From Pocillopora verrucosa (taxonomy: Eukaryota; Cnidaria; Anthozoa; Scleractinia; Pocilloporidae), in contig NC_089324.1 of the NCBI RefSeq assembly GCF_036669915.1, positions 5,101,744 to 5,165,743 on the forward strand: a stretch of 64,000 nt of DNA, given 5' to 3'. The notes beneath the pieces were generated by a model, which was not told the DNA's origin, made no database searches, and saw nothing but the letters and a program-made list of their open reading frames with translations. Below are positions 518 through 64,000 of the stretch, piece by piece. The number at the start of each line of letters is the position of its first letter. Positions within the stretch are counted from its first letter, which is position 1. The position numbers and the translations under genes were made by a program.

Positions 518-3500
518 AGCACTGGCCGATCCGCTCCGTCTAAAGAAGACAAAGACAACTTTAAGAAAGTTCTGCAGTCTATACACGGACGTCTTTCGGT
601 TAAAATGGAATATTTTCGGCGATATTTACAAGCCCATGGTGAACCAGACGGCTTTCCTCGCTTAGAGAACGATCTTGTTTTCTATTTGGAAGTTCAGAAG
701 TTCAAGGTAAGAAATTCAAGACACTGTTGCGAAAACAAAGAAAGAGGAAATGCAAAATATGTTTCAATAATAGATTACGATGGATAATTAACAATTATTT
801 GCCAAAGTGAGCGTAGATAAAGGGGGCGAGACGCGACGCATTGAGGTAAATAGCTATTACTTTCAGCCACACCGAGAGTCGAACAATTTAGGTTTTATTA
901 TAAACCACACAGAGACCTAAAGAGATAAATTATTTCTGTCAATGTATCGAAAAATGGTCAGAAATTAATCACTTGACGCGCGATTTTGTTCTTCTGCTGC
1001 TCAGAGGTGACAGGTACAGGCTAAACGCTTCCGAACTAGCTGATCAGCGCGCGCGAAAAGCATTAACCTGTATGGTGTATACTCAACTTGGATATTTTTA
1101 GCGCAAGCATGAGAATTCACAGTTAATTTTTGTTATTATACCGGAAAATGGTCGGAAAATGGTCGGAAAATTTCAAAACTTTGACGCACGATTTTGTCTC
1201 TTCGACCGCTCGGAGGTGAATAGCACCTGGTAATCGCTTCCAAAGCAGCCAATCAGCGCGTTAGAAAAGCACTGTTCACCTGTGTGGTATGTACTAAATT
1301 TTAGTGCAAGCTTGAAAATACGATTAAACATTTTGAAAAACTAAATGTAAATCAAAATCATCCACTTTACAGAAGACACCAAATGTGGTTTACAATGAAT
1401 TCAGTATTGACGCCTGTGATTCAGTTGAGACTTCGAGGAATCGCAGGTTACAAATGTGGGACTGCAAAACATTATGCAAAGCAATTGTGACTCCAAAGCC
1501 TGATCGGCAATCCCATTTGATAAGAGTTTTGCGAGACTGTTTCTATTGGAACAGAGCGTGTGCTTTAATTGCCAGCACGGAAACAACACCACAACATATT
1601 GTTTTCTATGATTCATAACTCTCTACTCCCATTTCGTTTACCATCCCATAGTTTACTGATTTTCTTGAATTTTTTTTACGAAATTTTAATTTTTTCTCTC
1701 TTTACATACAGGAATTGTTTAACTACATGGATGATGTAAGTCTTGTGAACTGGTTGATTTTCTCAGTAGCTTCTTGCACCCACTTCTGAATGATGGAGTG
1801 TTTGCTTTCATATCCTAGGTTTCCCTAAATCGTAAAGTAGAGGCAATCATCGAGTGTTTCTTGGACTCAGCCACCCCTCCCTGGCTACAGGTGAGAACAT
1901 ATCGAATTCTTTGTTTTTGTTGTTGTCGTTTGCCCCCTCCCTCCCCACCCTTCAACAGACGAAACTTGCTTGTTTCCGTCGTGCCCCTCTCATCTTGCGT
2001 GACTCGTACTTTGCGCTAGCATCGCGCTTGCCTTTGTTCGACAACGCAGAAAAAAAAAGAAATTGTTTATTCAGCAGGCTAGGCTTAAAATTCACCTAGG
2101 AACAAATATCAGTCTGAAATATGTGCTCGTTTAAATTTGCTGGCATGTGCACAAAAAAATAAATTATACCGCTTAACTGTTCAGACCGGCATTTAGAGGG
2201 ATTTCTTTTTCTTTGCGGTAACTTTTCCACGCATCTCTCCACGATTTTATTTTTCAACACCATTTTCAAATGCCTTTTACTTAATGCTCCATCAAGGATG
2301 AAGCCCATTGGAAAATTCATGCTAATTATTTTTAGCAGGAGACCAGGCTTATTATTTTGACGCCATGCATTGTTTCAGTAGCAGGTGTTGTTTCGCATTG
2401 TCACGCAACGCGTGACAAGACCACATAATAAAAGAAAAACATTTCAAAGTCAAAGTAAAATTTCATTTGCAAATTGAAAAAAAATGTGTGTATGTAGAGT
2501 AGCTTGGACTGCCATGGCGCACCATAGAGGGAATTGAGATTAACACATTTTCTGACAAATGAAGCATCCTATTCCTTCAAAAATAAAATGTATTCTCGGT
2601 GCTCCTGGAAAGAATATGGTTTGAAAGTAAATATTCATTCGACAACATCGCTTCATTACTAGAGTAATTTACATGTGGTTAATTTATTACCCATATGGTA
2701 TCCAACTTTTGCTATCAAGGTGGTCTAAACAATGAAAATATTCTCCGTTACGAGTACTGACTTCGTTTACATGGCAAACCAAATTTTAACCCTGAAACCC
2801 CAAGCAACTCCCGCGTCACCGTTTACTTAAGTTGAAATTTCAAACCGTCATAAACCATTTACGAATGGTTTGATGTCAACTCGGAAAGTTACCGTTAAAA
2901 GCGTCTTTAAGAATTAATACGATGAAACATCAACCTTTGTCAGTTTGAAGTGCATTTCATTAGTCTGTAATGAACTGTTTTTACATGGTAATACTCTCTC
3001 GCTTAAATTTCAGAAAAATTCATAACTCTAACTAAACTTCGGGTAAAATTTCCTCACAGCCCCATACTACATTACGCATTCAGTTCTTGGATAGAGAAAA
3101 CAATGACAAAAACAATGGATCGCAAAAAAACAGACAACAACAACAAAAAAAACCAGAAAACTGGGAAAACAAATTTGTTTTACAATAGTATGGGGTTGTG
3201 CGGAAATTTTACCAAACTTCGAAACGTTTCTTGATAAAGTGTTAGGAAATGTTAAGTTTTCATAGTTTTCCTATGAAAAGTTGCTTTAAAACTTTTAATA
3301 ATTGATGAGCGATAAACCAGAGTGTCACCTTGTGTAAATACTTAAAGTTAATATATGCTAAAAAATTCAGATGAAATGAAACTAAGCTCAAACTTTAATT
3401 TAAAGTTATAGCCTTAATTTTTCTATCTCTTCACAACTTCGCAGTGCATCTGTTATTTTGTGGGCCAACGGTTTTTCGTATGGAATTCTCATAAAATCAC

Positions 3501-6500
3501 CATAAGATGATGTCAGAAGTTTCCTCCATTCGCGCGGTGCTGGTAAAGCAAACCCATCGAAATTCACTACAACTAAAGGGAAAATGTCGGTCCGTTTTCT
3601 TCTCAACGGTCCGTAGATAAATCTTCGTACGAACCATGAGGAATGACTGAACAGGTTTAAAAAATTGCCATCAGAATCCGTCTCTAGTACCAGCATATCA
3701 AGTTGCAAACCATCCGCAAACTTGCAGCCGTTACGAAGACAATACTTATAACAACTCTTGGTGTCGCGAAGTTTCCCCAACATTCCACTTTGAGGCGGAA
3801 TTTTGTAAAATACATCGGTGTCTTCTGTTTGGAAAAATATATCATCTGGAAGTTCTTTCAGACCGTATTTAACAAACTTTTCAAAGTCTGCTTTAGGAAT
3901 GCAAATATCTATGTCATCGTCGAAAGGATTGTGGCCGCCATGTCGAATCGCTCCGAGAAGACTGCCTCTAGTTAACCAGTATTTTATACCGTGCTTTTTT
4001 GCAATCAGATCAAAGATTCGAAGAATTCTTGTAAGCACTAACTGAGCCTTTCGAAGTGGTGTTGAACCCAACTGACGGATATCTGGGCAGTCAATGTCGC
4101 CGTTTGGAGTATTTTGACACTTTCCTAACTTCGTGTATGCGACTGGACGGCGTGAGTCTAATTCCTGCAAGCGAACGCCTCGTTTAGGTAGCGAAGTAAT
4201 CAAGAGCGATCCCAAAACACATGTACCTATCAAAATAATCAATGAGATAAATGCAGGTCGCCTCCATCTACGCTGTGTTGGCCCTCTTCTGATCCATCGC
4301 CATAAATTTAGCATGGTTTTGAATTCGAAGTAAACGAGACTTGCTGATCTCCATGTAAACTCTGACGTCAGAAAAATATTCATGTGGCACTAGGCGAGGT
4401 TACCTATCAACTTTAAGTCAATTTTGGTACAAATGATTTTTTCGCTCATAAAAACTTTCGCAAGCGCTACCAAACCTTACGGATGCCATCCACTAGCTTT
4501 GGAAGCCGTGAATATTTTGCCGGTCAGGCTAGAAAATCCTTCTTCATATTTCGCAACCTTTTATACTACGAAGCGTCTATGAAAGTATACAACAATTACT
4601 GGCCGAAAGCGAAACGAAGATGGATAGGTTATCGCATATGGCCGTGTTAAATACAGGACTTTTCATTGTTTTGTTAGGGTTAATGAATTGTAAAATGCGC
4701 GAATTAGCCCTTTTAAAAAACATTCGCCATCCAAGAAAATTATAATACACGACATTAAGCCGTTTTAAGGGTTCTAAATGTAGTAGTTTCCCGGGGATTT
4801 ACCAATGTTAAGGAAAAATATTCTCTGTCCCAGCAAATCAGCATTTAACAATTTTGCCTTCTGGGCTATAACTGACAATCAATATATATAAATCATGCAT
4901 GTGAACTACGAATAAAGAAGTGAATATTAAACCGATGTTCGCGGTAATGGACACCACTTGAGCAGAAGTGAAAATAAGGCTTGAAAAAAAGAAATTAAAT
5001 TAACACTCAATTTCTAAAGTCCACCTTTATGCTCCGTTGGTGTCGACTGATTCCTCTTACCTCCCCCCTAAAAACTATGTGATCCCCCCTATAAATTCTC
5101 CGAACCCCCGACCGCAGGTGATAGAGCAGGTGATCGAGCAGGTGATCGATTATGAATAGTTCAGTGGCGGATCCAGGGGGAGGGGGCACGGGGGGCCCGT
5201 GGCCCCCCTTTTTAAAATCCTAGATCCGCCTCTGAGTTGCGTACCCAAACCTTTCACGGCCAAGCGGTTGTTTCAGTGACAGTTACACAGTAAGATCTGG
5301 GTACGAGATTAGATTATGGCTGGTTTCTTGTAATCAATAGCAATAGAAAAAAAAGGAAACCCTTTAAAACTCTAAAAACATTCATTCATCTTAATCTGTG
5401 AAAATCTTTTTTACAGATTGACATTGGTCCCGAGCTTGCTTCTCGTATTATACACAAGGCCCAGGTCTTTTCGTCGGGGAAGAAAATCCCCAGGGAACAA
5501 AAGGAGCCAGGGCTTTTCGACGAGGCTCAAAGCATCTTGTTCAAGGAAATGCTCCCCTATTGGGCAGGATTTTGTAAACAGTACACTCCACCTGAAGATG
5601 GGGCAAATGTCAAGTTACCTCGTAAGTGTCTTTTTGAAGAGTGTGGAACTGCGCGTGCGCGGATGCTACTTTTCGAAATCTTTAGAAGCTAAGGAAACGC
5701 GTTTTTTCGCTCGCGCGAAGATTTGAGACTAGTTAGGAAAGTTTGCTCGGGGTCTGGCATTAATGATTAGTGCCAGACCTCTTGCAGACCTCTCGCTGGC
5801 CAGCGTTTTTCCAGGCGTCATACTTTCCCAAGGGTAAAGAAACGCATATTAACAACGACAGCCTACTGGCAGGCTACTTTTGGGGCCTCCTGATGTCTTC
5901 TTTTGTCCTCATATTTTGTCCGATCAAGCTGGTTTTGATTCGTTGTCTTTCTTTCCAGTTATAAAAAATAATGATCATGATAAAATATCTGATAAATTAA
6001 TCAAAATATAATCTTCTCTTTTCAGCCACTAAACAAGAGAAACTCCTACAGAAACGCTACGCAGAATTCCTGAAATACCCGGCAGTCACTAAGACTATCA
6101 CTCTACCCCTGTTGGTACCTAGTGTACATGGTCAGTCCAAGAGCGAGCTAAGTTTTTCTGTTTCGGACGGAATGAAATGGAAGGTATGCAAGAGACACTG
6201 TCTTTTTTATCTAAAAATGAAGATAAATATATGAATAAAGAGGTAAACATTTGTGACGAGGAAAACTAAGGAGATCCCATAAGGCTTCGAGCCAGTTGCG
6301 ATCGATGTAGCGGTTTTATGCTCCTACGACTGTCGCTAAGGGGTGAGAAGTTTGGAATTGGCAACCAAGCTAAACTAGCTTTTTTCCCAGTGAATTACGG
6401 CCAGCTAAATTGACCAATCATACTACGCACGTTCGAACTGAGAGATAACAACAATAATAAATCATATTGGAAGCAGCTTCCTTTTGTTGAGATGGGGTAC

Positions 6501-14699: not shown

Positions 14700-16330
14700 G
14701 CCTTATTTAAATAAGCGCACCCCTCAGGTGTGCCGCCCTGCTGTCAGTTAGACGATTATCACTGAGGTATAACACCGCGAGTTTACAGTTGCCATGTTTA
14801 AGTGCATCAATTAGGTGTGCGGCCCCGACGTAAATCAGACGATTATTACTGTGGTATAACATGGCAAGTTTATAATTGCCATGTTTAAGTACATCACTCG
14901 ATCAAGTGTGCTGCTCCGCTGACAATCAGACAATTATTACTGAGGTATAACATAGCGAGATTTCAATTGCTATGTTTAAGTGCATCACTTAGATGTGCTG
15001 CTCCGCTGTCAATTAGACGATTATTACTGAGGTAAACAGAGCGAGTTTGCAGTTGCCATGTTTAAGTTCATTACTCAGGTGTGCAGCCCCGCTGTCAACT
15101 AGACGATTATTAATGAGGTATAATACTTTGAGTTTACAATTGTCATGTTTAAGTGCATCACTCAGGTGTGCAGTGCCGCTATCAATTAGACGGTTATTAC
15201 TGAGGTATAACAGGGCAAGTTTACAATAGCCATCATTAAGTGCGTCACTCAGGTGTGCAACCTTGCTGTCAATAAGACGATCATTACTTTTGAATAACGT
15301 GGTGAGTTTCCAATTGCCATGTTTAAGTGCATCACTCAGGTGTGTTGCTCCGCTGTCAATTAGACGATTATTATGAGGTATAATTGGCATTTTGAAGAGC
15401 ACCACTCAGGTGTTTAACGCCTTTGTTTCCTCCATTGAGCACACAAAGTTTTCTACTCCTTTGTTTCCTAAATTGCTCTTAACAAGGTCTTGTATCGTGC
15501 GTTTACAGTTAACATCTTTAAGTGCATCACTCAGGTGTGCGAATCCCTTTTTCTCTATATTGTTCTCGGCAAGGTTAAATGATATCGTGACTTTACAGTT
15601 GCATCGCTCAAGTGTGCTACTCCTTCGTCTCCTACAACGTTCTCGATCAGGTGCCAGACTTCGAGTTTTACAGTTTACATCTTTATATGTATCGCGCAGA
15701 TATGCTGTTCCTTTATTTTCATTTTAATCCTAATGAGAACCAAGCTCCTCTATTTCCAATCTCCTTCACTTTAAACAATCCACTTTTGAGTCTCTCTACA
15801 ACCCAGTTACCAATGTCGTTTCCTTCCAATTGCAGATTCTTGTTAACGGGTGTCAGCCCGCAGGCAGTAAAAGTGACTGCATCAAAATCAGTTTCTTCAA
15901 TTCTGTTTGCTATAACAGATTGATGCTTTAAATTTAGCTCCTACAAACACTTGCTCAAGGTCATGGCTACTTCTTTGTCTTCATCGTAAACTTGCCAACA
16001 AGTCAATGTTGAAGCTTGGTAAAAACATCGATGCTACGCATTTCTTGAGCCTCACCGGGGCTCCGGCCACACATTGAATCACCAGTTTTCAAGCGCTTTG
16101 GCGAATATGATCAGCAAAAATTCCTGCAATTCTTGGGTTTCCTTCATGGTATCGATCACATGCTTAGCAACTAGGAATTCTCGAACAGTAAGGAGCATGA
16201 AACAGAATTGAGTTTCACTTAGGTCAAGAGGGGCTGGGCCAGTTAGGTCAGGTAAACGATGGAGCAATCCACAGTCTTCTAGTCCTTCGACTTCTTGTGT
16301 CGTTAAGATTAATTCACTTCTACGTTTGTG
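14700..16330 (-). pseudogene. Decayed NACHT-LRR fragment (paralogue of the neighbouring NLR)
   Basis: Read on the minus strand, 16267-16079 translates to the end of a NACHT module (LLHRLPDL-type start, then TVREFLVAKHV). It matches the same part of the intact NLR (LLHRLPDLNSP, TVQEFLAAKHV). Downstream, 15405-15013 is an open stretch of 29-residue LRRs (RLIDSGxAHLSDALKHGNCKL). A 1-base slip near 15030 breaks the frame, and further LRR units continue to about 14720 in other frames. Between 15410 and 15920 the repeats are badly eroded. The P-loop half and the N-terminus are absent. It is a broken tandem duplicate, oriented the same way as the intact gene. Confidence 0.8.
14720..15400 (-). repeat. 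87-bp tandem LRR units
   Basis: About eight units of roughly 87 bp, each containing a TAGACGATTATTACTGAGGT-like block and a TTGCCATGTTTAAGTGCATC-like block (plus-strand view). They are visibly more alike at DNA level than the repeats of the intact NLR next door, which points to recent unit-by-unit expansion or gene conversion. Confidence 0.75.
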
Positions 16331-16616: not shown

Positions 16617-19600
16617 TTATGCACAACTTTTGTAGAAGGCATTCCATAGACGTGCGAGTTGTTCTTCGCGTATATTGTTTCCTTCGACATTATACTCAGT
16701 GAGTGTGCGATTCTCATTTTTAAATGCTTCAAGTAGCTTTTCTGCTCCCTCATCTCCTATGTTGTTGGCAGAAAGATTCAGTTCAATAAGTTTACAATTC
16801 ACGTTTTTAAGTGCTTCACTTATGTATGCTGCTCCTTGGTCCTTTACATTGTTTCTTTCAAGGATCAACACGGTGAGTTGACAGTTTCTTTCTTTAAGGG
16901 CATCAGTCAGGTGCTCTGCACCCTTATCTCCAATACCATTAGCCTTAAGGTTCAACTCAGTGAGTTTGCATTCTACCGATTGAAGTGCATCAGCTAGGTG
17001 TGCCGCTCCTCTTTCTCCTACATTGTTAAAAGCAAGGTCTAACTTAATTAGCTCACATGACACATTTTTAAGTGTATCAGCCAAACATGCTGCCCCATAC
17101 TCTCCAATATTGTTCCTACCAAGGTCCAACACGGTGAGTTTACAATTTCCATCTTTTAGTGCATCGCAAAGGTGTTGTGCCCCATAGAGTTCTATGCTGT
17201 TACCACTAAGGCCCAACACAGTTAGTTTACAATTTGCAACTTTAAGTGCTCTACTTAGGTGACCTACTCCATCGTCCCCTAAATCGTTACCTGCAAATTC
17301 CAATTCAGTTAGTTTACAATTTACATCTTCTAATGCATGAGAAACATATGTTGCCCCTGTGATTTTGGCTTTGTTACGGGGAAGACGCAACACGGTCAGT
17401 TTACAATTTACATGTTCAAGTGCATCTCTCAGACTCAACAATCCCTTGTTTCTGATTTTGCAATCGCCAATGTCTAGCAGAGTCAGTCTACAATTTTCGT
17501 TTCTAAGAGCATCACTAAGGAGTGCTGCTCCGTTGTCTCCTATATCGTTACCATAAAGGTGTAACTCCGTGAGTTTACAATGTTCATTTTTAAGTGCGAT
17601 AGCTAAATATTTAGCTCCTTTGTCTCCTATGTTGTTACCTTTAAGATCCAGCGTGGTTAGTTTACAGCTATTTTCTTTCAGTGCATCACATATTGTTTTT
17701 GCTCCTTTTTCATCTATTCTGTTATAAGAGAGTTGTAACTTTGTTAGTGTACAATTTTGGTGTTTAAGTGCGTTACCCAGTTGTTGCGCTCCCTTACACC
17801 CTATTTCGTTGCGAGACAAATTCAAACTACCTAACTTGAAACCACACTCACTGCTGTCACTTTGATCAACCCACTTTTGAATCTCCATACAACCCAACCA
17901 ACTTATTTCATTACGTTCTAATGTTAAAAAGATTGTTCCAGCGTTTTTAAGGAAATGCACTAAAGCTGCACAGTCAACAGGTGCTAAATCACAACCACTA
18001 AAATCCACTGCATTAAAACCAATTTCCTCAATTTTGCTTGTCACAGCAGATTGCTGCTCTAATTGGTGATCATACAAGCAGTTGCATATGCGCAAGGCTA
18101 AATCTTTGTCTCCATCAGTTGGCCAACAGATCAATGTAATTGGCTCTTCAACTGCATAGTTCCAAGCAACACTCATGAGTTCCTTTTCATTCGTCTTACT
18201 TGTGTCCATGGGAAGAAGTTCTGTAAACATTTTCACTGCTGACATTTCTCCAGCAGCATCGGGGTCTAACAGTCCAGCCACAAACTGCATCACTACTTGC
18301 CAAGCACTTTGGTTGATTTTATCTGAAACAAATTTCCGCAATCCTTCAGTGTTCTTCATGGTATCTACCACATGCTTAGCGGCAAGAAATTCTTGTACTG
18401 TTAGGTGCAGGAAACAGAACTGAGCTTCACCTGCGTCGATAGGAGTTGGGCTATTCAGGTCAGGTAGACGATGGAGCAATCCACAGTCTTCTACTCCTTC
18501 AACTTCTTTAGCTGAAAAGGTCAGTCTGCCCTCTTCAAGTCCGAGAAGGGCGATCTTTCCCAATTTATTAAAAATACTCTGAACTTGGGAGGGCAATTCG
18601 CAGTATCTTGTTAAAATAAACTGATCATCGGAGCCCTTAGACTGGCGATATTCATCATTGTGTCTAAAGAAGGAAATCTTTAGGGCCAAACTATATATCT
18701 CGGTCAGCTTAGTGGGGAAATTGCAACCATTAGAATGCAGTTGTGACAAGCAGGAACAAATGATGAAGCAATGGACAGGAATATAGCAAAAGGTGAAGAG
18801 ATTGATATTTGTACGAAGGTGTTGCCATATTGAAACGTGATCGTTACTTCCCTCGGTAAACTTCTTCACATAATTTGCAACTTCTTCAGAAGAAAATCCA
18901 AGAATTTCAACAATTTTATCGAAATTCAGCTGTCTTACACATGACACAGCAGTTGGTCTTGATGTCGTGATAACTGTGGCACCAGGGAGAAGTTTCCTCG
19001 ACGCTATTTTGTAGTAAAGACATTGGAGAGGCATCTTCTCTTCCTCAATGTCTTTGTATCCCGAGTCATCTTGGCAGATGTCTTCTTTGGCAGAAAACTC
19101 ATCTACTCCATCAAAAATTAATAGAACTTTGGATGGGTTTTGGATAATGTACTTCCACACGTCATCATTCAGATTCTTTACTGTTTCTGAGCCAGTAAAG
19201 AGTTCGCGAAGGTTGAGGTTCTTTACCGAGTTGAATCGCTTGAATTTTATAAGGAAAGCAACATCAAAGTTTCCGTCCTTAAGCACATCAAACGCCGCGA
19301 CTCGAAGCAGCTTTGTGGAAAGGATTGTTTTACCAATGCCTGGACAACCGACCACAAGAATATTCTTGTGCCGGCCATCAATGATATTTTCTACGCATAT
19401 TTCACCGTCATGCTGATCCGCCCTAGGTATTGGAAACACTTTGGGTTGCTTGCATCTACCTTCTGGAAAATAATCTTTTGCTCGGCCTTCATGTATAACT
19501 AAGTTTACAAAAATTTGATCGATCTCCAGATCTTTGGGACATGGGCCTTCACCTGGATTAGGTCGAATAGGTTGTTTCAGATCTGTAAGTTGTTTCGTGC

Positions 19601-20438
19601 CTTTTATTACATCGTCCTTCAAGCTCTTTAAGTCCACTTGCAGTTTGTTTCGCGCCTGCTGGGATATTTCTAATAACGGAACGCCAATGGGGTCACGGTT
19701 GGATAGCAGATGATCATCATAAAAATGACAGTCTTGCATGAAGTGTGAACCGTTCTTTGCCCGAGACAAAATCCAGACAATTTCAATAAAAGTGACAAGA
19801 GCAAACGATCCATCAACAAAAGTTAAAAAATAACTCCAAAAAGTTATTTTGTGTGCTAATGAACTGTAACATTCGTAAACACTACTGCTTGTCGGTTTGA
19901 AGTCTGATGCTGATAATGGTGATTGAGTTCGTTCTTTAGTTAGATAACACCGAAAGTTCGAGGGAAAGTTACCGGGATAAGCGATTTCGGTTTGCAAGAC
20001 GATGAAAAAGATCGCTAGGGCAAGTTCTAAGGCCAGATGAGAACAGTAGCGGATGAAAAGCCGTTTCGTGGTTTGACTTCCTTGTTGTCCCGGTGCTGCG
20101 GCATCTGCGTCGCGTGTCTCGAGCTCATGGATTCTCGATTTGACGCACTGAGAGTATATAACAGGAATGATTGCGATGACTATGAAGTTAATGATGACGA
20201 GGCCACAGACGGGGAGTTTGATGTATTTCTGTTCGTATTCACCAAAGCACTTCTCTTTGATGAAGTCCGCGTTGTCATTCGTATTACTAATATTACAGCG
20301 GAAACGTGAAGACTCACCGCCTTCGATGCCTGCGAAGATTGAAAACAAAACAACTTCGAATCCAGACCACACGGTAACTGCCGCCAAACTAAGTTTACTC
20401 AAAGTCTTCGTTATCAATAGGTTCCTTAGTGATTCCAT
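16617..20438 (-). CDS. Four-transmembrane NACHT-LRR (NLR) receptor
   Basis: Intact single-exon ORF of 1273 residues, the longest in the window. There is no CARD, death, PYRIN or TIR domain. A short N-terminus (about 18 residues) leads into four hydrophobic segments at about 19-37, 76-96, 131-150 and 199-224. The loop after TM1 holds C48 and C64; the loop after TM3 holds C164 and C190. The N-terminus, the TM2-TM3 loop and everything after TM4 would be cytoplasmic. NACHT follows, with P-loop GCPGIGKT (364-371) and Walker B LLIFDGVDEF (439-448). The NACHT tail reads LLHRLPDLNSP and TVQEFLAAKHV. About 14 ribonuclease-inhibitor-type LRRs of 29 residues (consensus LTxLxLxxNxIGDxGAxxL) fill about 868-1273. 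NLRs sense ligands through LRRs and oligomerise through NACHT. The membrane module resembles large-pore channel subunits in topology and cysteine pattern; that homology is inferred. The start is the only Met that keeps the pre-TM1 segment. Confidence 0.9.
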   Translation of the reverse strand: MESLRNLLITKTLSKLSLAAVTVWSGFEVVLFSIFAGIEGGESSRFRCNISNTNDNADFIKEKCFGEYEQKYIKLPVCGLVIINFIVIAIIPVIYSQCVKSRIHELETRDADAAAPGQQGSQTTKRLFIRYCSHLALELALAIFFIVLQTEIAYPGNFPSNFRCYLTKERTQSPLSASDFKPTSSSVYECYSSLAHKITFWSYFLTFVDGSFALVTFIEIVWILSRAKNGSHFMQDCHFYDDHLLSNRDPIGVPLLEISQQARNKLQVDLKSLKDDVIKGTKQLTDLKQPIRPNPGEGPCPKDLEIDQIFVNLVIHEGRAKDYFPEGRCKQPKVFPIPRADQHDGEICVENIIDGRHKNILVVGCPGIGKTILSTKLLRVAAFDVLKDGNFDVAFLIKFKRFNSVKNLNLRELFTGSETVKNLNDDVWKYIIQNPSKVLLIFDGVDEFSAKEDICQDDSGYKDIEEEKMPLQCLYYKIASRKLLPGATVITTSRPTAVSCVRQLNFDKIVEILGFSSEEVANYVKKFTEGSNDHVSIWQHLRTNINLFTFCYIPVHCFIICSCLSQLHSNGCNFPTKLTEIYSLALKISFFRHNDEYRQSKGSDDQFILTRYCELPSQVQSIFNKLGKIALLGLEEGRLTFSAKEVEGVEDCGLLHRLPDLNSPTPIDAGEAQFCFLHLTVQEFLAAKHVVDTMKNTEGLRKFVSDKINQSAWQVVMQFVAGLLDPDAAGEMSAVKMFTELLPMDTSKTNEKELMSVAWNYAVEEPITLICWPTDGDKDLALRICNCLYDHQLEQQSAVTSKIEEIGFNAVDFSGCDLAPVDCAALVHFLKNAGTIFLTLERNEISWLGCMEIQKWVDQSDSSECGFKLGSLNLSRNEIGCKGAQQLGNALKHQNCTLTKLQLSYNRIDEKGAKTICDALKENSCKLTTLDLKGNNIGDKGAKYLAIALKNEHCKLTELHLYGNDIGDNGAALLSDALRNENCRLTLLDIGDCKIRNKGLLSLRDALEHVNCKLTVLRLPRNKAKITGATYVSHALEDVNCKLTELEFAGNDLGDDGVGHLSRALKVANCKLTVLGLSGNSIELYGAQHLCDALKDGNCKLTVLDLGRNNIGEYGAACLADTLKNVSCELIKLDLAFNNVGERGAAHLADALQSVECKLTELNLKANGIGDKGAEHLTDALKERNCQLTVLILERNNVKDQGAAYISEALKNVNCKLIELNLSANNIGDEGAEKLLEAFKNENRTLTEYNVEGNNIREEQLARLWNAFYKSCA

Positions 20439-23460: not shown

Positions 23461-24543
23461 TCATCGAATTCCTCTGATTTGCTTCCAAAGGGCAACGGCA
23501 ATCGGCTTAAACAGTCTGCGTTCTCGTGTTTCAGAGTTGAACGATACTCGATCTCGTACTGATATACCGACAACAAGATTGCCCATCTCTGCAGCTAGAG
23601 TATACCGAATACCGCTTTTCGAACCTAGCAACGTCACTAAAGGCTTGTGATCGGTTACCAACAAAAATTTGCGTCCGTATAGATATTGATGAAATTTCTT
23701 AATTCCAAAGATTATACTAAGGGTTTCTTTCTCGATTTGCGCATAATTTCTCTCACTCTTGTTCAACGTGCGCGAAGCGAATGCGATGCGTCAGTATCTA
23801 ACTTAAGAGGAAAATTATTCTGATAATGCACCAAAACTGGGGCTTTCGCTAATTTGTCTTTAAGCTTTGCGAATTTGTCCTCTTCCGATTTCGACCACTT
23901 CCATTTAATCCCGTCACGCAATAGTTCATTCAATGGATGCGTTACCATTGAATAATTGCTTATGAATTTAGAATAGTTGTTAACCATCCCAAGAAATGAT
24001 CGAAGTTGCTGCTGATTTTCAGGAGCTGGCAAGTCACGAATTGCCTGAACTTTCTTCTCAATCGCGTGCAACCCGCTTGCATCGACTCGGTATCCTAGAT
24101 ACTCAACTGATGGTTGTATGAATTTACATTTGCTTAGCTTCAATCTTAAGCCTGCGTTTTCCAGCCTCGTCAACACCTCGTTGGATTACTGATGTGCTCT
24201 CGATCGTTTTTGCCTGATATTAAAATATCATCTACTCGGCAAACGACCATTGGTATTGCTTGCAATACTTGCTCAATCTTAGACTGGAAAATTGCACTCG
24301 CGCCGGAAACGCGCGAGTGCAATTTGTCCCTTGTGGGTATTGATTGTTACAAACTCCCTCGAGCAATATTTGCTGATAGGCGCGCGATAAATCTAGCTTC
24401 GTAAATTTTTCTCCGCCGCTCAAAGCAACGAATAACTCCTCTGGATTTGGAAGCGGATGTTGGTCTACCTCCAAAGTCGAGTTAACTGTTACTTTGTAGT
24501 CCCCACAAATCCTTACGCCCCCATCTGGTTTCACTACCGGCAC
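23461..24543 (-). pseudogene. Reverse transcriptase and RNase H remnants
   Basis: Minus-strand pieces in successive frames. 24543-24232 has the RT palm start (KPDGGVRICGDYK, then FTKLDLSRAYQQI). The active-site region reads VDDILISG near 24240-24200. 24176-23763 has the connection region (YLGYRVDASGLH). 23766-23461 has the RNase H start ([13 protein letters not shown], then [10 protein letters not shown]). At least two frame breaks separate the parts. Confidence 0.85.
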
Positions 24544-24555
24544 TATGGGCGCTGC

Positions 24556-25160
24556 CTAGTTAGAGAAACGAACTTTCTCTAACACTCCCATATTCTCTAA
24601 TCGATCAAGTTCTTGCTCAATAGCCCTCTTAATTGCATGTGGCACTGGTCTAAGCTTATGAAATTTGGGTACAGCTCCGGGTTCAACAAAAAATTGAGCC
24701 TTTGCGCCCTTCAGTGTTCCCAGTTCATCCTTAGATGCTTCTGGACGTTTATCTAATACACTATCAAGTTCATTACTTATCTTCTTGATTGTAGGCCAAA
24801 TGAGCCTAATCTTGGAAAGCCAATTACGTCCAAACAGACTCGGACCGCTTCCTTTGATGATTTGTAATGGCAACCTCTCGGTTTGGCCTTCGTACTCAAC
24901 ATCAACCATTGCTTTGCTGAGGACTGTCAGTGGTTCCCTGAGTAAGTTGACAGTCTCGCGCTCGATTGTTGGAGTGTTGTGGTTGGACACGCCTCTTTCC
25001 ACGTTTCTTCTGACATCACAGACAGGGTCGCTCCAGTGTCCAGTTCCATCGGGATCTTTGAGTCATTCATCTTGATGTGAATTAGGATTGCTGGTTCAGC
25101 TGTTTCGTCCTCCACTTTGAAAATGCTGAAGTTTCCCGCTACGCCTTGCTCGTCTTCCAA
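24556..25160 (-). pseudogene. Retroviral-type aspartic protease and RT N-terminal remnant
   Basis: 25160-24927 contains the aspartic protease active-site motif ELDTGATLSVM. 25002-24556, in another frame, continues with the protease C-terminal part (GPSLFGRNWL) and runs into the RT entry (HKLRPVPHAIK, then LDRLENMGVLEKV). The frame shift between the two pieces would prevent a single polyprotein. Confidence 0.8.
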
Positions 25161-25802
25161 GCAACATACTGGGTAGGAGTTCTTAGAGACATTTCCTCTC
25201 TCTGGTTTGGCAGCTCCCTTTTTTCTGCAAACCTTTTGGATATGTCCCTTGCATTGACAGAAATGACACGTTTGATCCTTAAACTTGCACGTTTGTGGTG
25301 CGTGGTTTCCACCTCAACGGAAACACGATTTCTGCTCTCTTGGCTTTCTGCCTTACTTGTTCTGCGTACGTGCTGGTAGCACATTAATGTTTGAGGGCGG
25401 TGCCACTGGTCCGAAATGGTTTGCCTGCTTTTCTGCTGATTCCATGGCTATGGCCGTATCAAGGGCCTTTTTCCAAGTTAGTTCGGTCTCAGTTAGCAGC
25501 CTCTTTTGGATTTGCCTGTTTCGCAATCCACAGACAAATCTGTCCCTTAATGCTTGCTCAAGGAATCCTCCGAACTCGCAACGTTCCGAACACTGTTTTA
25601 GTGCTGCGGCGTAGTCCGCCATTCCTTCCCCTTTTTCTTGATCACGCTTGTGAAAGTGAAAACGCTCCGCAATAATTATTGGTTTCCGTTGGAAATGGTT
25701 GCTCAACGTTTCCAACAGTTCTGCAAGCTTGAATTCTGAAGGCTTTGCTGGGGCCTTTAAGTCCCTCAGTAGGTTGTAGCCGTTGCTCCCTACGCTCGTC
25801 AA
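25139..25802 (-). pseudogene. gag remnant with zinc knuckle
   Basis: 25802-25353 is a gag-like capsid stretch (FHFHKRDQEKGEGMADYAAAL, CGLRNRQIQKRLL). Below it, up to about 25200, a CCHC zinc knuckle (CHFCQCKGHIQKVC) can be read with at least one in-frame stop nearby. Frames change at about 25360. Confidence 0.8.
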
Positions 25803-25944
25803 GAAAACTGCTACAATCCTCTTTTCGTCTTTGAACTCGTTCGCTTTAACGTACTGCTCAAATCGCTCAGAATACGAACTCTAGTCCTCCTTAGCTGGGT
25901 CATAGGATTCTATCGATCCTATGGTAGTCATCCTCGTCGCCAGT

Positions 25945-44600: not shown

Positions 44601-46776
44601 AATTAGTTTCGTAGTTGACAATACTTCATTCCCAAAAGCGATTCAAATTATGGTTGTAAACAACACTGATTTTTCTGATTTCAACTGAGGCTTTGCGACA
44701 TTGGATATACTCTTCATTGTCAACTCAGTTAATAAAAGCAAATTATCATGTTGTACCCCGATCGATGCAGCACCACAATTTATTTAGAAACTTACCCCCT
44801 TCATTCACTTGAAGAAACGGTTTGATTAGATTGACACCACGTAGGCAAGAATTAATCAGAGAGAGATGAAGTTGTTTATAAATGATGGCAAAAGTAGTGC
44901 AAATTATTATATAGCTGGCTTTGCAAGTGAGCAAGTTGAAGCATGTCCTCAGATCTTATCTGCTGCTTAAACGGGCAAGATAAAGCAAATCCTGTGTTCT
45001 GATTGGCTCATTGGCTAACCTTGTGGGAGTAGTTTCTAACTTCTTGGAACAAAAGAAGAAGATTGACAGCGAAAAGTGTTTCGCTAATTTTTAAAGACTT
45101 TTTTCATCAGTATTTTGTGACGTAGAAACTTCTTTAGATATTTTAGAAGAATGAAGGGTTTGTAAACAGAATTTCAACCTATTCTAGGCTTTCACCAGTA
45201 AAACGAAGCGCGATAGTAAACTGAGAAGTGATAAAACAAGGGAGGCCTGGGTTGACTTGACCCAAGCGTACCTCGCGATTTTACTTAGCATATACTATGA
45301 CGCCGATTGTCATTTCGCTCTGTTTTGTTAACTTGAAACCTGGAACAGGCTAATAGAATTTTAAGCTATAAACCCTTCTCAAAAAGCACTCTACCTTACA
45401 GCTCCTGATTCCAAGCCAGTTCAGAAAAAGAAAAGAGGAAAACAAACCACTTTGATGAAAACACCTCCAGAGAAAGAGAAAGCAACAGTGAATAAGGAAA
45501 CATCGCCAGAAAGGAAAAACACACCCTCCAAGAAGTAAGTGGAGAATTGCCCTTTTTTCAGTGTTACATCATTTGACCATTAGAGCACTGGAACACCCAG
45601 TATTCCGTGCTGCTAGGCTAAAACACGAACAGAAGGAAGAGCGGCAAAATGCTTCCACTTAATGATTTGTTTTGGTTTTCTCTTAGCAGGCTTTTTAAAA
45701 AACAAACTTTAAACGCTTTAGATTGTTTTGTTGGTATTAACACATTTAAATGGTTTCATCTAGGTTGCTTTCATCTTTTGTGCATGCCTTATGCGGTCGA
45801 TGCGATGCTAAGTTGAGGCTCAAGGATCTTTTTCGAAAACTAGAAGGCAAAATTATACTAGAAAAAGAAATAATGGAGTGGTTGCAAGTCCCTTATTCGA
45901 TGGTCTAACATGATAAAAGCGGACATTTCCCCGTGGTCACTAATTGCTCTTGAATCTGCCCGTATTTATACATCTTATTCGATGGTTTATCATTTGTTAT
46001 TTGAATTTCAAACTCCGAAATATTGCATTTCTAGTTTTCTGATTGGTTCACTCAACTCTGGTTTTCAGCTCATATTCTGAATCACCTTAGTGGCAACTAT
46101 TGTGGAGCTGAAAAAGGGCTCTAAACATCCAAATGTTGTGGATTTAATGCAGATCAAGAAGAAAATTATTCCATCTGCGCTTGTTGGATACGCGATTGGC
46201 TATGGCCAACTCATATCAAATGTGCTCGTATAGAATAATTGTTTAATATGCGCAGGTCTTTGCAAGTTGCATTTTTTTTCCACGCCCTGTAGGGACAACT
46301 TGATATACTGGGGAAATGACATGAATTTACAAAATAATGGTAACTAGATGACCAAACTTCCCTTTCTAATTTATAAAGGAGATTTCTAATAACTTAAAGA
46401 GAGGAGTATTAAAAGATCTTGGAAGGTAAAACGTTCATGTTTTATTTTTGACAGGGTGAATGGTTTTACCCTTTGGTTTGAGGAGAACAAAGGAGGTTTG
46501 TCAGAAGAAAATCCTGAGCTGACTGGTACTGATCTTGTTAAATCTGCCATGCGACAATGGAAGGCACTTGATGAAGATGAAAAAATGGAATGGAACAATA
46601 AAGCAAAGGAAACTGCAGAGGAAACGGAACAAGGAGAAAAGAAACGCAAAAGAGAAGTGTCAGATGAGGAAAATGAAGACTCGTTAAATACAATTAATTT
46701 AACTAAGAAGACAAAAGAATCAGGGGGGAAAGTTGCAACATCCAAACTGGCAGGTTTTGTTTATAACAAAAATTAA
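26647..46776 (+). CDS. WDHD1: WDHD1 (AND-1/Ctf4) replisome adaptor, 28 coding exons
   Basis: WDHD1/Ctf4 is the nuclear hub linking CMG helicase to DNA polymerase alpha-primase. Exons: 26647-26723, 27212-27323, 27606-27662, 28233-28324, 29008-29116, 29820-29870, 30220-30266, 30898-30946, 31278-31310, 31811-31870, 32151-32257, 32899-32983, 34110-34151, 35005-35185, 35840-35946, 36160-36246, 36394-36578, 37341-37422, 37975-38255, 38677-38785, 39459-39520, 40215-40329, 40747-40857, 42051-42119, 42911-43232, 43745-43978, 45402-45534, 46455-46776. Phases agree throughout, giving 1106 residues, close to the roughly 1130 of vertebrates. Residues 1-293 are WD40 repeats (start MPADRKPMRFAHSEG; SYLLTCGSDGDVRIYKD). 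An acidic linker follows (about 308-367), then the SepB/Ctf4 middle domain (about 404-770) and a disordered basic tail. An HMG box (NGFTLWFEENKGGL, MRQWKALDEDEKMEWN) lies at about 1000-1065. The donor of exon 25 could be 43202 or 43232; both keep frame. AATAAA lies at 47275. Confidence 0.95.
29122..29333. repeat. Dispersed MITE-like repeat, WDHD1 intron 5
   Basis: Near full length, about 212 bp. It starts TTAACCCTTTACACCCTAAC and ends with the diverged inverted CTCAGGGATTAAAGAGTTA. It begins only five bases after the exon 5/intron 5 boundary, so the splice donor reads GTAAG followed directly by the repeat. Confidence 0.75.
30513..30730. repeat. Dispersed MITE-like repeat, WDHD1 intron 7
   Basis: Starts TTAACCCTTTAACTCCCAGA and contains AGTGATTAACAAGTAACTTCTC. 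It belongs to the same subfamily as the copy at 60112 in opposite orientation. The right end is eroded. Confidence 0.6.
31321..31465. repeat. Truncated MITE-like repeat, WDHD1 intron 9
   Basis: Starts with a CCCTTTTTACACCCTAACATC block about 10 bases after the exon 9 donor. It keeps the 'tattctccatactgttctc' block and ends near 'ccttaactcagg', just before the GTCA-rich satellite. Confidence 0.65.
31485..31735. repeat. GTCA-rich simple repeat
   Basis: An imperfect (GTCA)n/(GTCAGTTG)n tract of about 250 bp in WDHD1 intron 9, interrupted by short unique stretches. No function is visible. Confidence 0.85.
33440..33905 (+). repeat. Long polypyrimidine tract in WDHD1 intron 12
   Basis: About 465 bp composed overwhelmingly of C and T on the plus strand, with many CCCTC and CATC units (for example TCCCTCCCTCCCTCCCC near 33795). 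The strand asymmetry creates a long accidental ORF, which I discount. Such tracts can form triplex structures. Confidence 0.8.
36594..36740. repeat. Degenerate MITE-like repeat, WDHD1 intron 17
   Basis: Starts AACCCTTTCTCTCC about 16 bases after the exon 17 donor. It keeps a 'ctgcatatcaggtatccatacag' block comparable to the family's 'atgcatattctccatactg'. The right end is not clear. Confidence 0.4.
37190..37745. repeat. Two copies of a G-rich motif in WDHD1 intron 18 region
   Basis: A TTTCAGGTGAGGGGTGGG-like segment followed by 'gtggg.ttt...gagcatg.cag' occurs at about 37206 and again at about 37697. The first copy lies before exon 18 and the second after it. These look like fragments of one dispersed repeat; neither is an exon in frame. 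Confidence 0.45.
40860..40960. repeat. ATT/TTA microsatellite
   Basis: An imperfect (ATT)n tract just after the WDHD1 exon 23 donor (exon ends 40857). It would encode only isoleucine runs and is intronic. Confidence 0.85.
41006..41880. mobile_element. Foldback element with 167-bp perfect-stem region, WDHD1 intron 23
   Basis: The right part, 41692-41880, folds on itself. The left arm AAGCCTTGACTGTGCTCTAT... and the right arm, inverted, AAGCCTTGACTGAGCTCTGT... pair over about 80-90 bases with few mismatches and a very short loop around 41780. Upstream, a GTGCTCTATGAGAGTATAGA-type block occurs twice (about 41049 and 41577), suggesting the whole 41006-41880 interval is one composite insertion. 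No transposase ORF is present. Confidence 0.65.
42150..42360. repeat. Dispersed MITE-like repeat, full-length copy, WDHD1 intron 24
   Basis: The best-preserved copy. It starts CAACCCTTTAACCCCTAAGAG and ends TTTTAGGATGTAAAGGGTTAA, giving terminal inverted repeats of about 18 bp. The 211-bp unit begins about 30 bases after the exon 24 donor. There is no ORF. Confidence 0.75.
44070..44815 (+). repeat. Hammerhead-like repeat split by a 0.57-kb insertion
   Basis: 44078-44112 shows GTCGCT, CTGAGGA (fits CUGANGA), stem II GGGC-TAAC-GCTC, GAAAC, then CTTAGC. The core is intact but the usual GUC triplet is CTT. The repeat continues CAGTGGCCAATTTTCATTAT to about 44147, then is interrupted. It resumes at about 44713 with TTGTCAACTCAGTTAATAA and runs through GCAGCACCACAATT and TAGAAACTTACCCCC (44767-44800), in the same order as the copy at 13510. 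The intervening insertion carries the SINE-like element. Confidence 0.5.
44403..44545 (+). mobile_element. tRNA-derived SINE-like element, copy 1
   Basis: 44445-44517 folds like a tRNA: acceptor GTCTCTG pairs with TGGGGGC, the D arm is GCTCAGTGGTAGAGC, and the T arm is TGAGGTTCAATTCCTTG. The anticodon arm does not fold properly. The 8-nt loop lacks U33, unlike a working tRNA. The sequence is shared with the copy at 61973-62118 well beyond the tRNA part (GCGTGTCATATGAACTTC upstream, TGTCCCA downstream). This identifies a transposed family, not a tRNA gene. Boxes A and B are present for RNA polymerase III. Confidence 0.75.
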
Positions 46777-51173: not shown

Positions 51174-53381
51174 TCACAAGTCAACGAGAAGTTGATTTCT
51201 TGTCTTTAACCGTACTGAGTTTACAACATCCACACTGATTTCCTCACAACCTTTCAAAATGATTTTTCTCAACTTTGGCCATTCATTTCTATTGTGCTTA
51301 ATGTACCACTCCACCAGCAATGCATCTGTGATTCTTAAACATGCACTCAGGTCAAGGGTTCTAAGAACAGGAAACATAATAGCCAGTTCTCGTAGATTAT
51401 TATTGGTAATCATTGGAATTTGTGCAAGGCCTAAGTAGCAGAGAGTCTTTCCCACTTTTTGAGACAGAAAGTGTAGTTGATCACCACTGATTCCACGGCA
51501 GCTATTTAGTTCTAACCACTCCAAGGTTTGGAAATTGGGAAAATCCCATAGGGATTGCTCTTTGGGCACAAATGAACCAGTCAAATTCAGCCTCTTCAAA
51601 GCAGGAAATTTAAGAAGCTGTGTAAACATAATGGGATTATGGGGACATGTCACATCCAAGCTTGTAAGGTTTTTGTATGGTACTTTGTTACTTGGAAATG
51701 CCCAATCAAGAATGTGGTTTGTTAGTCTTCTGCTGTTGTGATAAGTGTCACGTACATGTAATTCAAATGTTTCTAGGCTAGACAACACACCTTGTTCAAC
51801 ATCGTGTAATTCTCCTAAAACAAATAAAAAAAATACTTAGCATGTTATCAATACTGCAGCCCATGTATGCAAACCTTAAAAAAAGGAAAATAGACAGTTC
51901 ACCTGCTTCACCATAATCCGTGAGCCATATCAAACTCAGACACAACTTTTGCAAGTGTGGATTACTACTGACAACTGCTTTGAGCCAAGACATCTCTACT
52001 GACTCTTGACATACAAGTGAGATGCTTGTCAATTTCCCACTGCTGCATAAAGCCCTCTGCACATCATCTGCCAGTGGATTTGAGCCTGCTGACTAAGAGG
52101 AAAGAAGACAACAAATATTTTCCATATTAATGCATTGCAAATGGCTACATTCAATGTATGTTTTAATATCATAACTAGCTAGTGCCTTTGATGTTTCTCA
52201 GTTTGTTTGATGGTCAAATTCACTGCTATGACACATGAATAGCCAATTGTTATCGACTGTATCATTTTCAAGGGGCTAAAACGTGGAATTACCTCCTAAT
52301 ACTGGTCACTGGTTCAACTAGCTCCTTTAAATTTAAAAAAAAAAAAAAGTGATTGAAGTAAGTATTAGGAAAATGCTCTGCACTATCCACCAGATAAAGA
52401 TTTATCGTGTGGATAGCCTTTCCCCCTCTTCAAACAACCAGTGCCAAGTGTTTTCTTGGAGGTCACTTTCTCTTATCATTCTGTTGAATGGGAAAAATGT
52501 TACTTTGGAAGTGACAAAAAAATGATGATGATGATGATGATGAAGAAAAGGGCCACTCTTTAAAAGGGGATTGGTAACCATCTTACTAAAATAATCAACT
52601 AATATCAGCACCATTGGTTTTTTCATTGTCACAGTGATGATAAAGATGAAGAAACACATTCTTAAGTCTATCTTCAACATCCCCTTGCATGAAGATGACA
52701 GCATTGTGAACTATATACCATAAATGGGAGTTAATGGCATTTCTATGTACTATGAAAAACTTTACATTTTGCAGATTATTTAACATTTCACTAATAAATA
52801 ATTATCCACAAAAAAGCACATTTACCAAAAATTTTCACGCTTACGTCATTCACATCCACTCTTCCAAAGCTCACTTCTTCAATTGAGGGTAGGCTTTTCA
52901 ACACTTGTTCAAAGGTCCGTTTTATCCTTTTTTGTAACTTTATGTCCACAGTTCCAAATGCAAGCCTCCTGAGATTAAGTTTTCCCTGGGAAGCAGCGTT
53001 GTAAAGAGCTTCGAGAGTAAACTGAGTCGTAACTTTAAAGGTAAGTTTATCAAGGTGAGGACATAAAAGTGGCTGCACGGTTTTTGTTTCATAAGGTTTT
53101 AAATATGAGTGCACCATATTTTCGAATTCCAGGTTTCTTATACCTCTAACTTTAAGGATCTCTATGGCCTCGGAGGCAATCTTTCTATCGTGAAGTCGTA
53201 TCTTCAAGTTGATATATCTCCAGAGATGAGGAGAGTTGAATATTTTCCGGAAATGTCGGTTTAGTCGTGCCATGATTCCTATTTGGCGCGGACTGAGGTA
53301 TTGTGCGAGATACAAGACCACATCATCTGGCAGAGAGCTCAGTGGAAAACAAAGATTCTGTGAACGAACTAGAGGATTCAT
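51174..53381 (-). CDS. F-box/leucine-rich repeat protein, three exons
   Basis: Coding exons on the minus strand are 53381-52845, 52092-51903 and 51814-51174. Phases match, junctions are GT-AG, and the product has 455 residues. The N-terminus holds an F-box (LSSLPDDVVLYLAQYLSPRQIG, then LNRHFRKIFNSPHLWRYINLKIR; about residues 16-60), which binds Skp1 in SCF ubiquitin ligases. The remainder is made of irregular LRRs (LKRLNLTGSF, LEWLELNSCRGISGDQL, LRTLDLSACLRITDALL), the presumed substrate-binding part. The exact FBXL member cannot be named from memory. An AATAAA-type signal lies at 50663-50668 (minus). It shares a 160-bp upstream gap with the acylphosphatase gene. Confidence 0.9.
52520..52545. 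repeat. GAT/ATG trinucleotide microsatellite
   Basis: (ATG)n tract of about eight units in intron 1 of the F-box gene. Confidence 0.85.
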
Positions 53382-53541
53382 GTTTACGGATCAGAATTCC
53401 TCAAATTACTAGAACATTTCACGATCGCACGTGTACCGTCTCTTCTCCTCCATGATTTAATTTGAGCAGCTACTGGGAATGAGCTTAAGGACACTTGGTA
53501 ACTTTTATATAACAGCGTTGTTATGACGCCGGTAAACAAAC
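53382..53541. promoter_or_regulatory. Shared bidirectional promoter, F-box gene / acylphosphatase
   Basis: Only 160 bp separate the two divergent start codons (53381 minus, 53542 plus). No TATA box is obvious. Both 5' UTRs and core promoters must sit here unless upstream non-coding exons exist. A CAAACATGGCGGC context surrounds the acylphosphatase ATG, matching the YY1-type AAGATGGCGGC class of initiator-like motifs only in part. Confidence 0.6.
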
Positions 53542-62761: not shown

Positions 62762-63423
62762 TCATGATACCCCACACGCTTTTACTTGTCTCCAAAACAA
62801 TTGCTTGACAAAGTCGTAAAGTTCAACATCTGCCCAATTTGCTTGTTTAATCCTTAACATCATTTCCTCACTCACAAAGTTGGAACTTCTCTTCACAGCT
62901 TGGTTCATTTTAACATCAGAATTCCTCGGGAAAACAGGTAAAAAGTAAGGTAGACGCCTTTGTAGAACCTTTAAAGTGAGGTGAAAGTGCTCCAACAATC
63001 CCACAACTGCATAGTGCTTAAGAATATTTTCTTTGGCTCTTTTAAGAGCATTCCTTCCATCGTTCTTACAAAATTTCTCAGGACCGCAAAAGAAACGCGT
63101 CATCAAATTTTTCTTACATCCTTGGCCTTCTCTCTCGAAGCAGTGCTGGATTGTCTCGTTCAACTCTCCATTTCGAATCATCTTGTTTATTCGCCACGCA
63201 GGTCGATGCCTTGTATTGTGCATGTAAGAGTAATGAGATATATATCTGGAAACTGGCTCTCTAACCTGATTGATGTACGTATGAGTCCGTTGAATTTTCA
63301 AGTTATCGCGGAAATAAAAGTGTGCGTTGTAAAAGATGTTATTACCAATGGCACGGGCTGCTCGCTCAATGATCATTGGGTAAGGATCAGAGATGCCCTC
63401 ATCATAAAAATCTTCGGTCGTTC
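62762..63423 (-). CDS. 2-O-sulfotransferase-type enzyme (HS2ST/UST family), last exon
   Basis: Terminal exon on the minus strand. CCTAAG acceptor before 63423, coding phase 2, stop at 62762; about 219 residues are visible. Enzymes of this family move sulfate from PAPS to uronic acid residues of heparan or dermatan sulfate in the Golgi. The sequence holds the 3'-phosphate-binding block YINQVREPVSRYISHYSY. Further conserved-looking elements are TRFFCGPEKFC with paired cysteines and a LKHYAVVGLLEHFHLTLKVL helix, followed by ELYDFVKQLFWRQV near the end. The PAPS 5'-phosphosulfate loop, the signal anchor and most of the N-terminal half must be in upstream exons beyond the window. Residue content does not separate heparan 2-O- from uronyl 2-O-sulfotransferase. 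An ATG inside this exon (63376) is not the real start, because the frame is open to the acceptor and reads TEDFYDEGISDPYP. Confidence 0.88.
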
Positions 63424-64000
63424 CTTAGGAAAAGCAAAAGCAAAAAAAACATTTACGAGGATTCCCTCAAAATCATTTCGTTGTTCTCAAAGTTCTGGCA
63501 CTTTAAGTTGCCAATGTGGTAGCACTCTTTCAGCGAGGGCGCGCACAATTAACCCTCCAACTATCATGACCAAGACAGAATTTCTTCTTACAATATCAAT
63601 ACAATATCAACCAGAAAAGTGATGAGAATAAAGAAGAATATCAATTTGGGGATAATTCGTTAATCCAATAACGCTCGAAACGTCAGCCTTTCAACTCTCT
63701 ATAGTGGCCAATTTACGTTTTCAACTCAGTTGTTAACACTAAATTACTCGCCACAACATTGCCTCCTTCCAGACACAGACTACTTATTGACTGAGTGGGA
63801 GGGCTTAATAATTGTCCTTAATTTAGTTCTAATCAGATGAAACAACTCACAATTCATCGAAAAACGCGACATTTTTTCTCGTTTAAACTCACCCTAGCAT
63901 CTACGATTTTTCACCCAATCAAAAAAGGAAGAGGGGGAAGGATAGAGTGCGTTGTGTGACGAGACAGCCTAACGGCTGTGAAGAAAACCAGTCACAACAT
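63424..64000. other. Intron or flank of the sulfotransferase gene with hammerhead-like fragment
   Basis: No further exon of the sulfotransferase is visible up to the window end. At 63668-63752 lies the right half of the hammerhead-like repeat: AACGCTCGAAACGTCAGCC, then ATAGTGGCCAATTTACG and TTTTCAACTCAGTTGTTAAC. The CUGANGA half is missing. Confidence 0.5.

Follow-up and report, generated by a model that had tools for sequence, protein, structure and literature searches.

We analysed a stretch of 64,000 nucleotides from the stony coral Pocillopora verrucosa (NCBI RefSeq assembly GCF_036669915.1, contig NC_089324.1, positions 5,101,744 to 5,165,743 of the forward strand), hereafter the window, whose positions are counted from its first letter. 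At 16617-20438, on the minus strand, lies a gene for a nucleotide-binding, leucine-rich-repeat receptor (NLR) which begins with a four-helix membrane module, followed by a NACHT domain and leucine-rich repeats (LRR). An earlier note, made from the letters of this stretch, had described an intact open reading frame of 1273 residues, and this is what we find: a single frame which starts with ATG, contains no internal stop and is preceded by an in-frame stop 13 codons 5' of the ATG. We rejected a pseudogene or artefact, as the frame is intact and 20 proteins (P0002-P0021), most of them 1273 residues long, are 96-100% identical to it over the searched part. We also rejected two genes read as one, as the membrane part and the NACHT domain share one uninterrupted frame. 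The nearest named relative is the P. verrucosa "NLR family CARD domain-containing protein 3-like" (98% identity over the searched residues 1-330).

The same note had seen four hydrophobic segments and two cysteine pairs, C48/C64 in the first loop and C164/C190 in the second. The cysteines stand at these positions, and the segments agree both with the hydropathy maxima of the window protein, P0001 (residues 18-36, 77-95, 135-153 and 205-223), and with the helices of a structure model of its module (15-40, 77-112, 119-153 and 193-229). Reading along the protein, all features being on the minus strand, we find a short N-terminal segment defined by the model (residues 1-13, with a helix at 2-7; window 20400-20438), and then the first transmembrane helix (TM1, 15-40; 20319-20396). 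Loop 1 follows (41-76; 20211-20318), delimited by sequence, conservation and model, with C48, C64, a strand at 46-48, a helix at 57-72 and a glycosylation sequon, N49-I-S. After TM2 (77-112; 20103-20210) and TM3 (119-153; 19980-20084), placed like TM1 by hydropathy and model, conservation and model delimit three further features: loop 2 (154-192; 19863-19979; C164, C190 and strands at 161-165 and 187-192), TM4 (193-229; 19752-19862), which carries the invariant E219, and a linker (230-359; 19362-19751) with a predicted helix at 260-280 and a conserved DLKQP motif. The NACHT domain (360-528; 18855-19361) is recognised by Pfam (E 2.9e-25, 89.5 bits for a cut-off of 26.7) and by its motifs, Walker A (GCPGIGKT, 364-371) and Walker B (438-447). 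A weak match to NLRC4_HD2 (678-792; 18063-18407) reaches 22.6 bits, under the cut-off of 33.1. The LRR array (869-1245; 16704-17834; Pfam LRR_6, E 6.7e-45, 148 bits) has 13 repeat starts spaced by 29 residues from 869 to 1217; the NACHT domain and LRR array announced earlier are thus present, with 13 repeats instead of about 14. Residues 1-267 match no Pfam family, be it a death-fold or another named N-terminal effector.

The module belongs to a large family. A search with residues 1-330 found 139 proteins and a wider search 765, the best 120 of each being listed; in the wider search and in one further search, scoring was confined to the 8000 candidates with the most words in common. The named homologues among the matches listed come from Pocillopora, Stylophora, Montipora and Acropora, so that the architecture, which the earlier note would have given up if related species lacked it, is found in other coral genera. 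Among 64 representatives less than 90% identical, E219 is present in all 64 and each of the four cysteines in 63-64. All four cysteines are present in each of the 119 homologues with filled columns (from the best 120 of 139), about 20 of which are near-identical copies of the window protein. In the 353 Mb assembly of P. verrucosa itself, the module has 66 matches at 63 distinct places, spread over several chromosomes and often clustered, and 53 of these places have an open frame of at least 700 residues. We retrieved 62 of them (the match at C3:30206008 was left out). A NACHT domain with Walker A follows the module in the same frame at 56 of these 62 loci, a count which covers module and NACHT but not LRRs; at L035, L052 and L054 the NACHT behind the module is in a different frame, and L062 is broken. 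C48, C64, C164, C190 and E219 are all present in the 59 modules of at least 240 residues, L062 being among those dropped. We rejected chance hydrophobicity because of this conservation across homologues and paralogues. In 13 of 16 hand-picked paralogue pairs, the ratio of nonsynonymous to synonymous substitution rates (dN/dS) of the module is 0.21-0.51, and in most of the 16 it is close to the value for the remainder of the protein. A tree separates the expansions of Acropora/Montipora and of Pocillopora, its long branches being flagged as unsure. As a side observation, L055-L061 are deeply diverged module-NACHT genes with 23-29% identity to the window module and the same four cysteines; the P-loop ends in GKS in the three that were read out (L055, L060 and L061).

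We compared this family with known proteins by means of an alignment A1 (the window module and 61 of the 63 other representatives, without P0103 and P0116), a profile A2 (the window module and 15 of 18 modules hand-picked from the 64, of several genera, without P0084, P0092 and P0107) and a profile A3 (29 of 30 Pocillopora representatives, without L029). Against the sequences of the PDB at E<=10, A2 has 16 matches, all connexins. A3 has 37 matches, of which 34, with the first 31 unbroken, are connexins (best E 1.3e-5), the three others being two galanin-receptor chains and a photosystem II subunit. Of the 24,736 Pfam families, none but Connexin is common to most modules: it is matched by 12 of the 16 modules of A2 (E<=10) and by 22 of the 29 modules of A3 (E<=0.01), where the runner-up, 7tm_1, is matched by 5. 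No LRRC8, pannexin, innexin or CALHM family was seen among the Pfam matches of these 16 and 29 modules. When aligned by hhalign with five connexins, A2 reaches a probability of 96.8% over 199 columns (score 75.0) and A3 96.6% (score 72.4), whereas reversed connexins give 0.1% and the best of 290 block shuffles of A2 scores 30.2. Single connexins give 69-95% (A2) and 84-95% (A3), compared with 0.2-2.4% for single sequences of PANX1, LRRC8A, CALHM1 and Inx2. On these last values we rejected an LRRC8, pannexin, innexin or CALHM identity. In 120 random subsets of 12 members, LRRC8A never exceeds 6.0.

The curated cut-off of Pfam Connexin (PF00029) is 31.3 bits. Among the members with bit scores given, L053 (39.1), P0204 (33.9), P0112 (32.4) and P0122 (31.6) lie above it, the match of P0112 covering profile positions 39-223 and hence both loops. 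In a first set of 10 members, 2 are above the cut-off, 7 below and 1 (P0092) has no match; in a second set of 10, 1 is above and 9 are below. Both sets were picked mostly for already carrying a precomputed PF00029 label, which by hand counts is borne by 29 of the best 120 of 765 proteins, 8 of the best 120 of 139 and 14 of the 26 from the further search. We hold it very probable that the coral module family is homologous to connexins.

The highest of these scores belongs to a module which stands alone. L053 contains a frame of 249 residues on the minus strand (G000:C1:22326351-22327097, or 4352-5098 of the locus; E 9e-10 to Pfam Connexin). Across this locus of 5.6 kb, a tblastn search with the window protein (E<=1) found only the module and no NACHT; the overlapping 10 kb of L063 gave no match. 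Searched alone against the PDB at E<=10, L053 has four matches, all connexins. This frame is a free connexin-like gene or else a truncated copy. In the tree it stands, with weak support (81/30) and on a long branch, beside L034, which has 18.3 bits to Pfam Connexin, below the cut-off. In L034 (3001-4929, minus strand) a connexin-like module is followed in the same frame, in place of NACHT, by about 400 residues of tandem acidic repeat.

The predicted fold points to the same group of proteins. The earlier note had supposed a likeness to large-pore channels and would have dropped it for an unrelated fold; all 50 rows listed by the fold search with the window module model are connexins, LRRC8 or pannexin. 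The large-pore likeness of the fold therefore stands, while by sequence the relative is the connexin and none of the LRRC8, pannexin, innexin or CALHM proteins. The nearest solved connexins are Cx31.3/GJC3 (6l3t), Cx32 (7zxo) and Cx26 (8q9z), and the models, which are predictions of moderate confidence, display the connexin-type four-helix fold, the short N-terminal segment and the loop strands. For the model of P0112, from Acropora millepora, the first match is rabbit NOD2 (Foldseek E 1.2e-21).

Each of the two loops of a connexin holds three cysteines; the first is bonded to the third of the opposite loop, and the two in the middle are bonded to each other. In the profile alignment, the coral cysteines line up with the outer two of each connexin loop: in loop 1, C48 with the first and C64 with the third; in loop 2, C164 with the first and C190 with the third. 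Loop 1 has two cysteines in all 59 modules; loop 2 has two in 54, three in 4 and four in 1. This means that the coral family keeps two of the pairs, without the middle one, as can be expected if these disulphides matter; by analogy with connexins they presumably run crosswise from loop 1 to loop 2. We rejected a canonical connexin on the count of cysteines and on the absence of the connexin signatures, and the class of the protein is that of an NLR with a connexin-homologous effector. Loop 2 bears a sequon in 54 of the 59 paralogues and in 95 of the 119 listed homologues, which indicates that it is outside or luminal. With the model, these sequons make it probable that both loops face the outside (cell surface or lumen of an organelle) and that both ends, with NACHT and LRR, are cytosolic.

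Our preferred reading, to which we give a probability of about 0.55, is that the window protein belongs to a group of over 50 coral NACHT receptors having a connexin-homologous four-helix membrane module as N-terminal effector, including a conducting pore. That the module forms a pore is, taken by itself, slightly favoured; that NACHT controls its gating falls a little short of even odds. A ligand would be sensed by an NLR bearing a resident large-pore effector, NACHT would then oligomerise, and this oligomerisation would open the membrane pore. Connexins are hexamers and NLR rings vary in their number of subunits; the relation between these symmetries could itself act as the gate.

Several results weigh against this reading. 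The module of the window protein has no Pfam Connexin match of its own (residues 1-267, 1-300 and 1-262; 0 families), most Connexin matches of other members are limited to TM3-loop 2-TM4, and so are the 92 columns of the hhalign match of A3. The best of 290 block shuffles of A3 reaches a score of 42.6 and a probability of 77.5%, and the 120 random subsets have a median of 91.2%, with at least 90 in 72 of them and a minimum of 15.0. Taken together, the controls with shuffles, subsets and single sequences show a connexin signal which is specific, yet unevenly carried among members. The best E-value of L053 alone against the PDB is 0.71, and the PROSITE signatures of connexins occur in none of 220 proteins and in none of the 59 modules. 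Four of the six connexin cysteines only are present, the window protein lacks the loop-2 sequon, and the charge of the loops breaks the positive-inside rule, loop 2 being on average the most positive part counted in the 59 modules. The three remaining paralogue pairs have a module dN/dS of 0.85, 1.05 and 1.36 (the last on a dS of 0.007). Finally, the window module model has a predicted local distance difference test score (pLDDT) of 71.9, a predicted template modelling score (pTM) of 0.55 and a Foldseek TM score of 0.44 by query length, and the fold scores (Z) of connexin, LRRC8 and pannexin, 14.9, 14.0 and 13.4, are barely apart.

The main rival is that the module, of connexin ancestry, no longer conducts and serves as a tether which anchors the NLR at the plasma membrane or an organelle, signalling being left to partners recruited by NACHT. 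The missing Connexin match of the window copy and the two cysteines of every loop 1 would suit it, as would the fact that large lineage-specific expansions may often relax one function. A bare anchor, however, would need neither four helices nor two cross-linked loops, not one of the 59 modules lacks E219 or any of the four cysteines, and the dN/dS of the module resembles that of the rest of the protein in most pairs; we regard the tether as unlikely, though it deserves serious attention. It is more doubtful still that an extracellular or luminal cue, such as one in the symbiosome, is picked up by the disulphide-linked loops and relayed by the module to NACHT. Loop 2 does differ in length and sequence between members, as judged by eye, and usually bears a sequon, but sensing usually falls to the LRR array, which here is long and regular, and the relatives among connexins are channels.

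The four helices and the two disulphides between the loops could also have arisen independently, so that the module merely resembles connexins. The near-equal Z of LRRC8 and pannexin and the weak scores of some 12-member subsets go in this direction; we hold it very improbable all the same, given the hhalign probabilities specific to connexins and the score of the stand-alone L053. Last, modules of two cells might dock with each other to form true gap junctions, as their homology to connexins and the loss of recognised gap-junction proteins in some cnidarians (according to PMC4685580) would allow. N-glycosylation, according to the abstract of an eLife paper, blocks the formation of gap junctions by chordate innexin homologues; with the loop-2 sequons, this analogy makes undocked hemichannels more likely than gap junctions. 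As the loop signatures of connexins are absent too, docking appears hardly credible.

If the resident-pore reading is widened, connexins would not be a chordate invention: corals would have at least one stand-alone connexin-like gene, and the pore module fused to more than 50 NACHT receptors would make a new class of immune receptors which are themselves ligand-gated, undocked large-pore channels. We consider this wider proposal possible, at slightly less than an even chance. Were it true, the ancestry of connexins would reach back beyond the parting of cnidarians and bilaterians, and most lineages would have lost them or let them diverge to an extreme degree. Both the origin of connexins and the idea of an animal NLR as its own channel, in the manner of plant resistosomes, become testable, and a membrane-resident sensor and pore would give reef corals a short route from the sensing of microbes or symbionts to ion or ATP signalling, within one of the gene families that have expanded in them. 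In the literature, connexins are stated to be absent from invertebrates (PMC9949713) and confined to tunicates and craniates, with Hydra standing for Cnidaria in the rows of a table (PMC6391747). As the surveys published in eLife and PMC6391747 used BLAST, they could have missed the coral modules. Among the titles listed from the open-access literature without preprints, none reports a connexin-NACHT protein or a cnidarian connexin; an earlier report may exist.

Elsewhere in the window, directly downstream of the gene and outside it (16000-16330, minus), what looks by eye like part of an NLR HD region is left in degenerate form. Also on the minus strand are an LRR-like open frame seen by eye at 15016-15405, with no Pfam match at E<=0.001, broken retroelement-like frames at 23766-25880 (RT_RNaseH_2 in one of the three scanned), and an intact frame of 325 residues of the LicD family at 3406-4383 (E 3.2e-22). 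Further open frames match the WDHD1 HMG box (46393-46773, plus strand), an F-box (52791-53390, minus) and, below threshold, a sulfotransferase (62765-63424, minus).

Compared with connexins (PF00029), the coral module shares the four helices, the short N-terminal segment, the strands of loops 1 and 2, the outer cysteine pairs, the motif C-aromatic-x-x-aromatic at the second cysteine of loop 1, C-x-x-x-R in loop 2 and the TM4 glutamate, besides the profile, profile-profile and fold matches. It differs from them by the lack of the middle cysteine pair, by a loop 2 which is usually longer and bears a sequon, by its fusion to NACHT and LRR and by its non-chordate host. The parallel drawn earlier with LRRC8, a membrane part with C-terminal LRRs, turns out to be an analogy without kinship of sequence: LRRC8 gives no profile match (hhalign 0.2-2.4%, a single LRRC8A) and is not known to have a NACHT, and the LRRs of the window protein match NLRP and ribonuclease-inhibitor chains. 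Pannexins, innexins and CALHM give no sequence signal (0.2-0.9%, one sequence each). The protein belongs to the same large, tandemly expanded NACHT family as the coral NLR repertoire described in PMC8260672, PMC10236652, PMC4083563 and PMC12314368; the accessible parts of these papers name CARD, DED, Death, TIR, HEPN and glycosyltransferase as partners and do not name a membrane or connexin module (Hamada 2013, cited there, lies outside this coverage). With animal NLRs such as NOD2, NLRP3 and NLRC4 it shares the NACHT-HD-LRR core, and it has a multi-pass membrane effector where theirs is a CARD, PYD, BIR or death-fold. In the CC-NLR resistosomes of plants, the N-terminal part forms a membrane channel, soluble helices being inserted after activation. 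The coral protein would share with them the principle of an NLR whose N-terminal part makes the channel; its module, however, would be of the connexin type and have its permanent place in the membrane.

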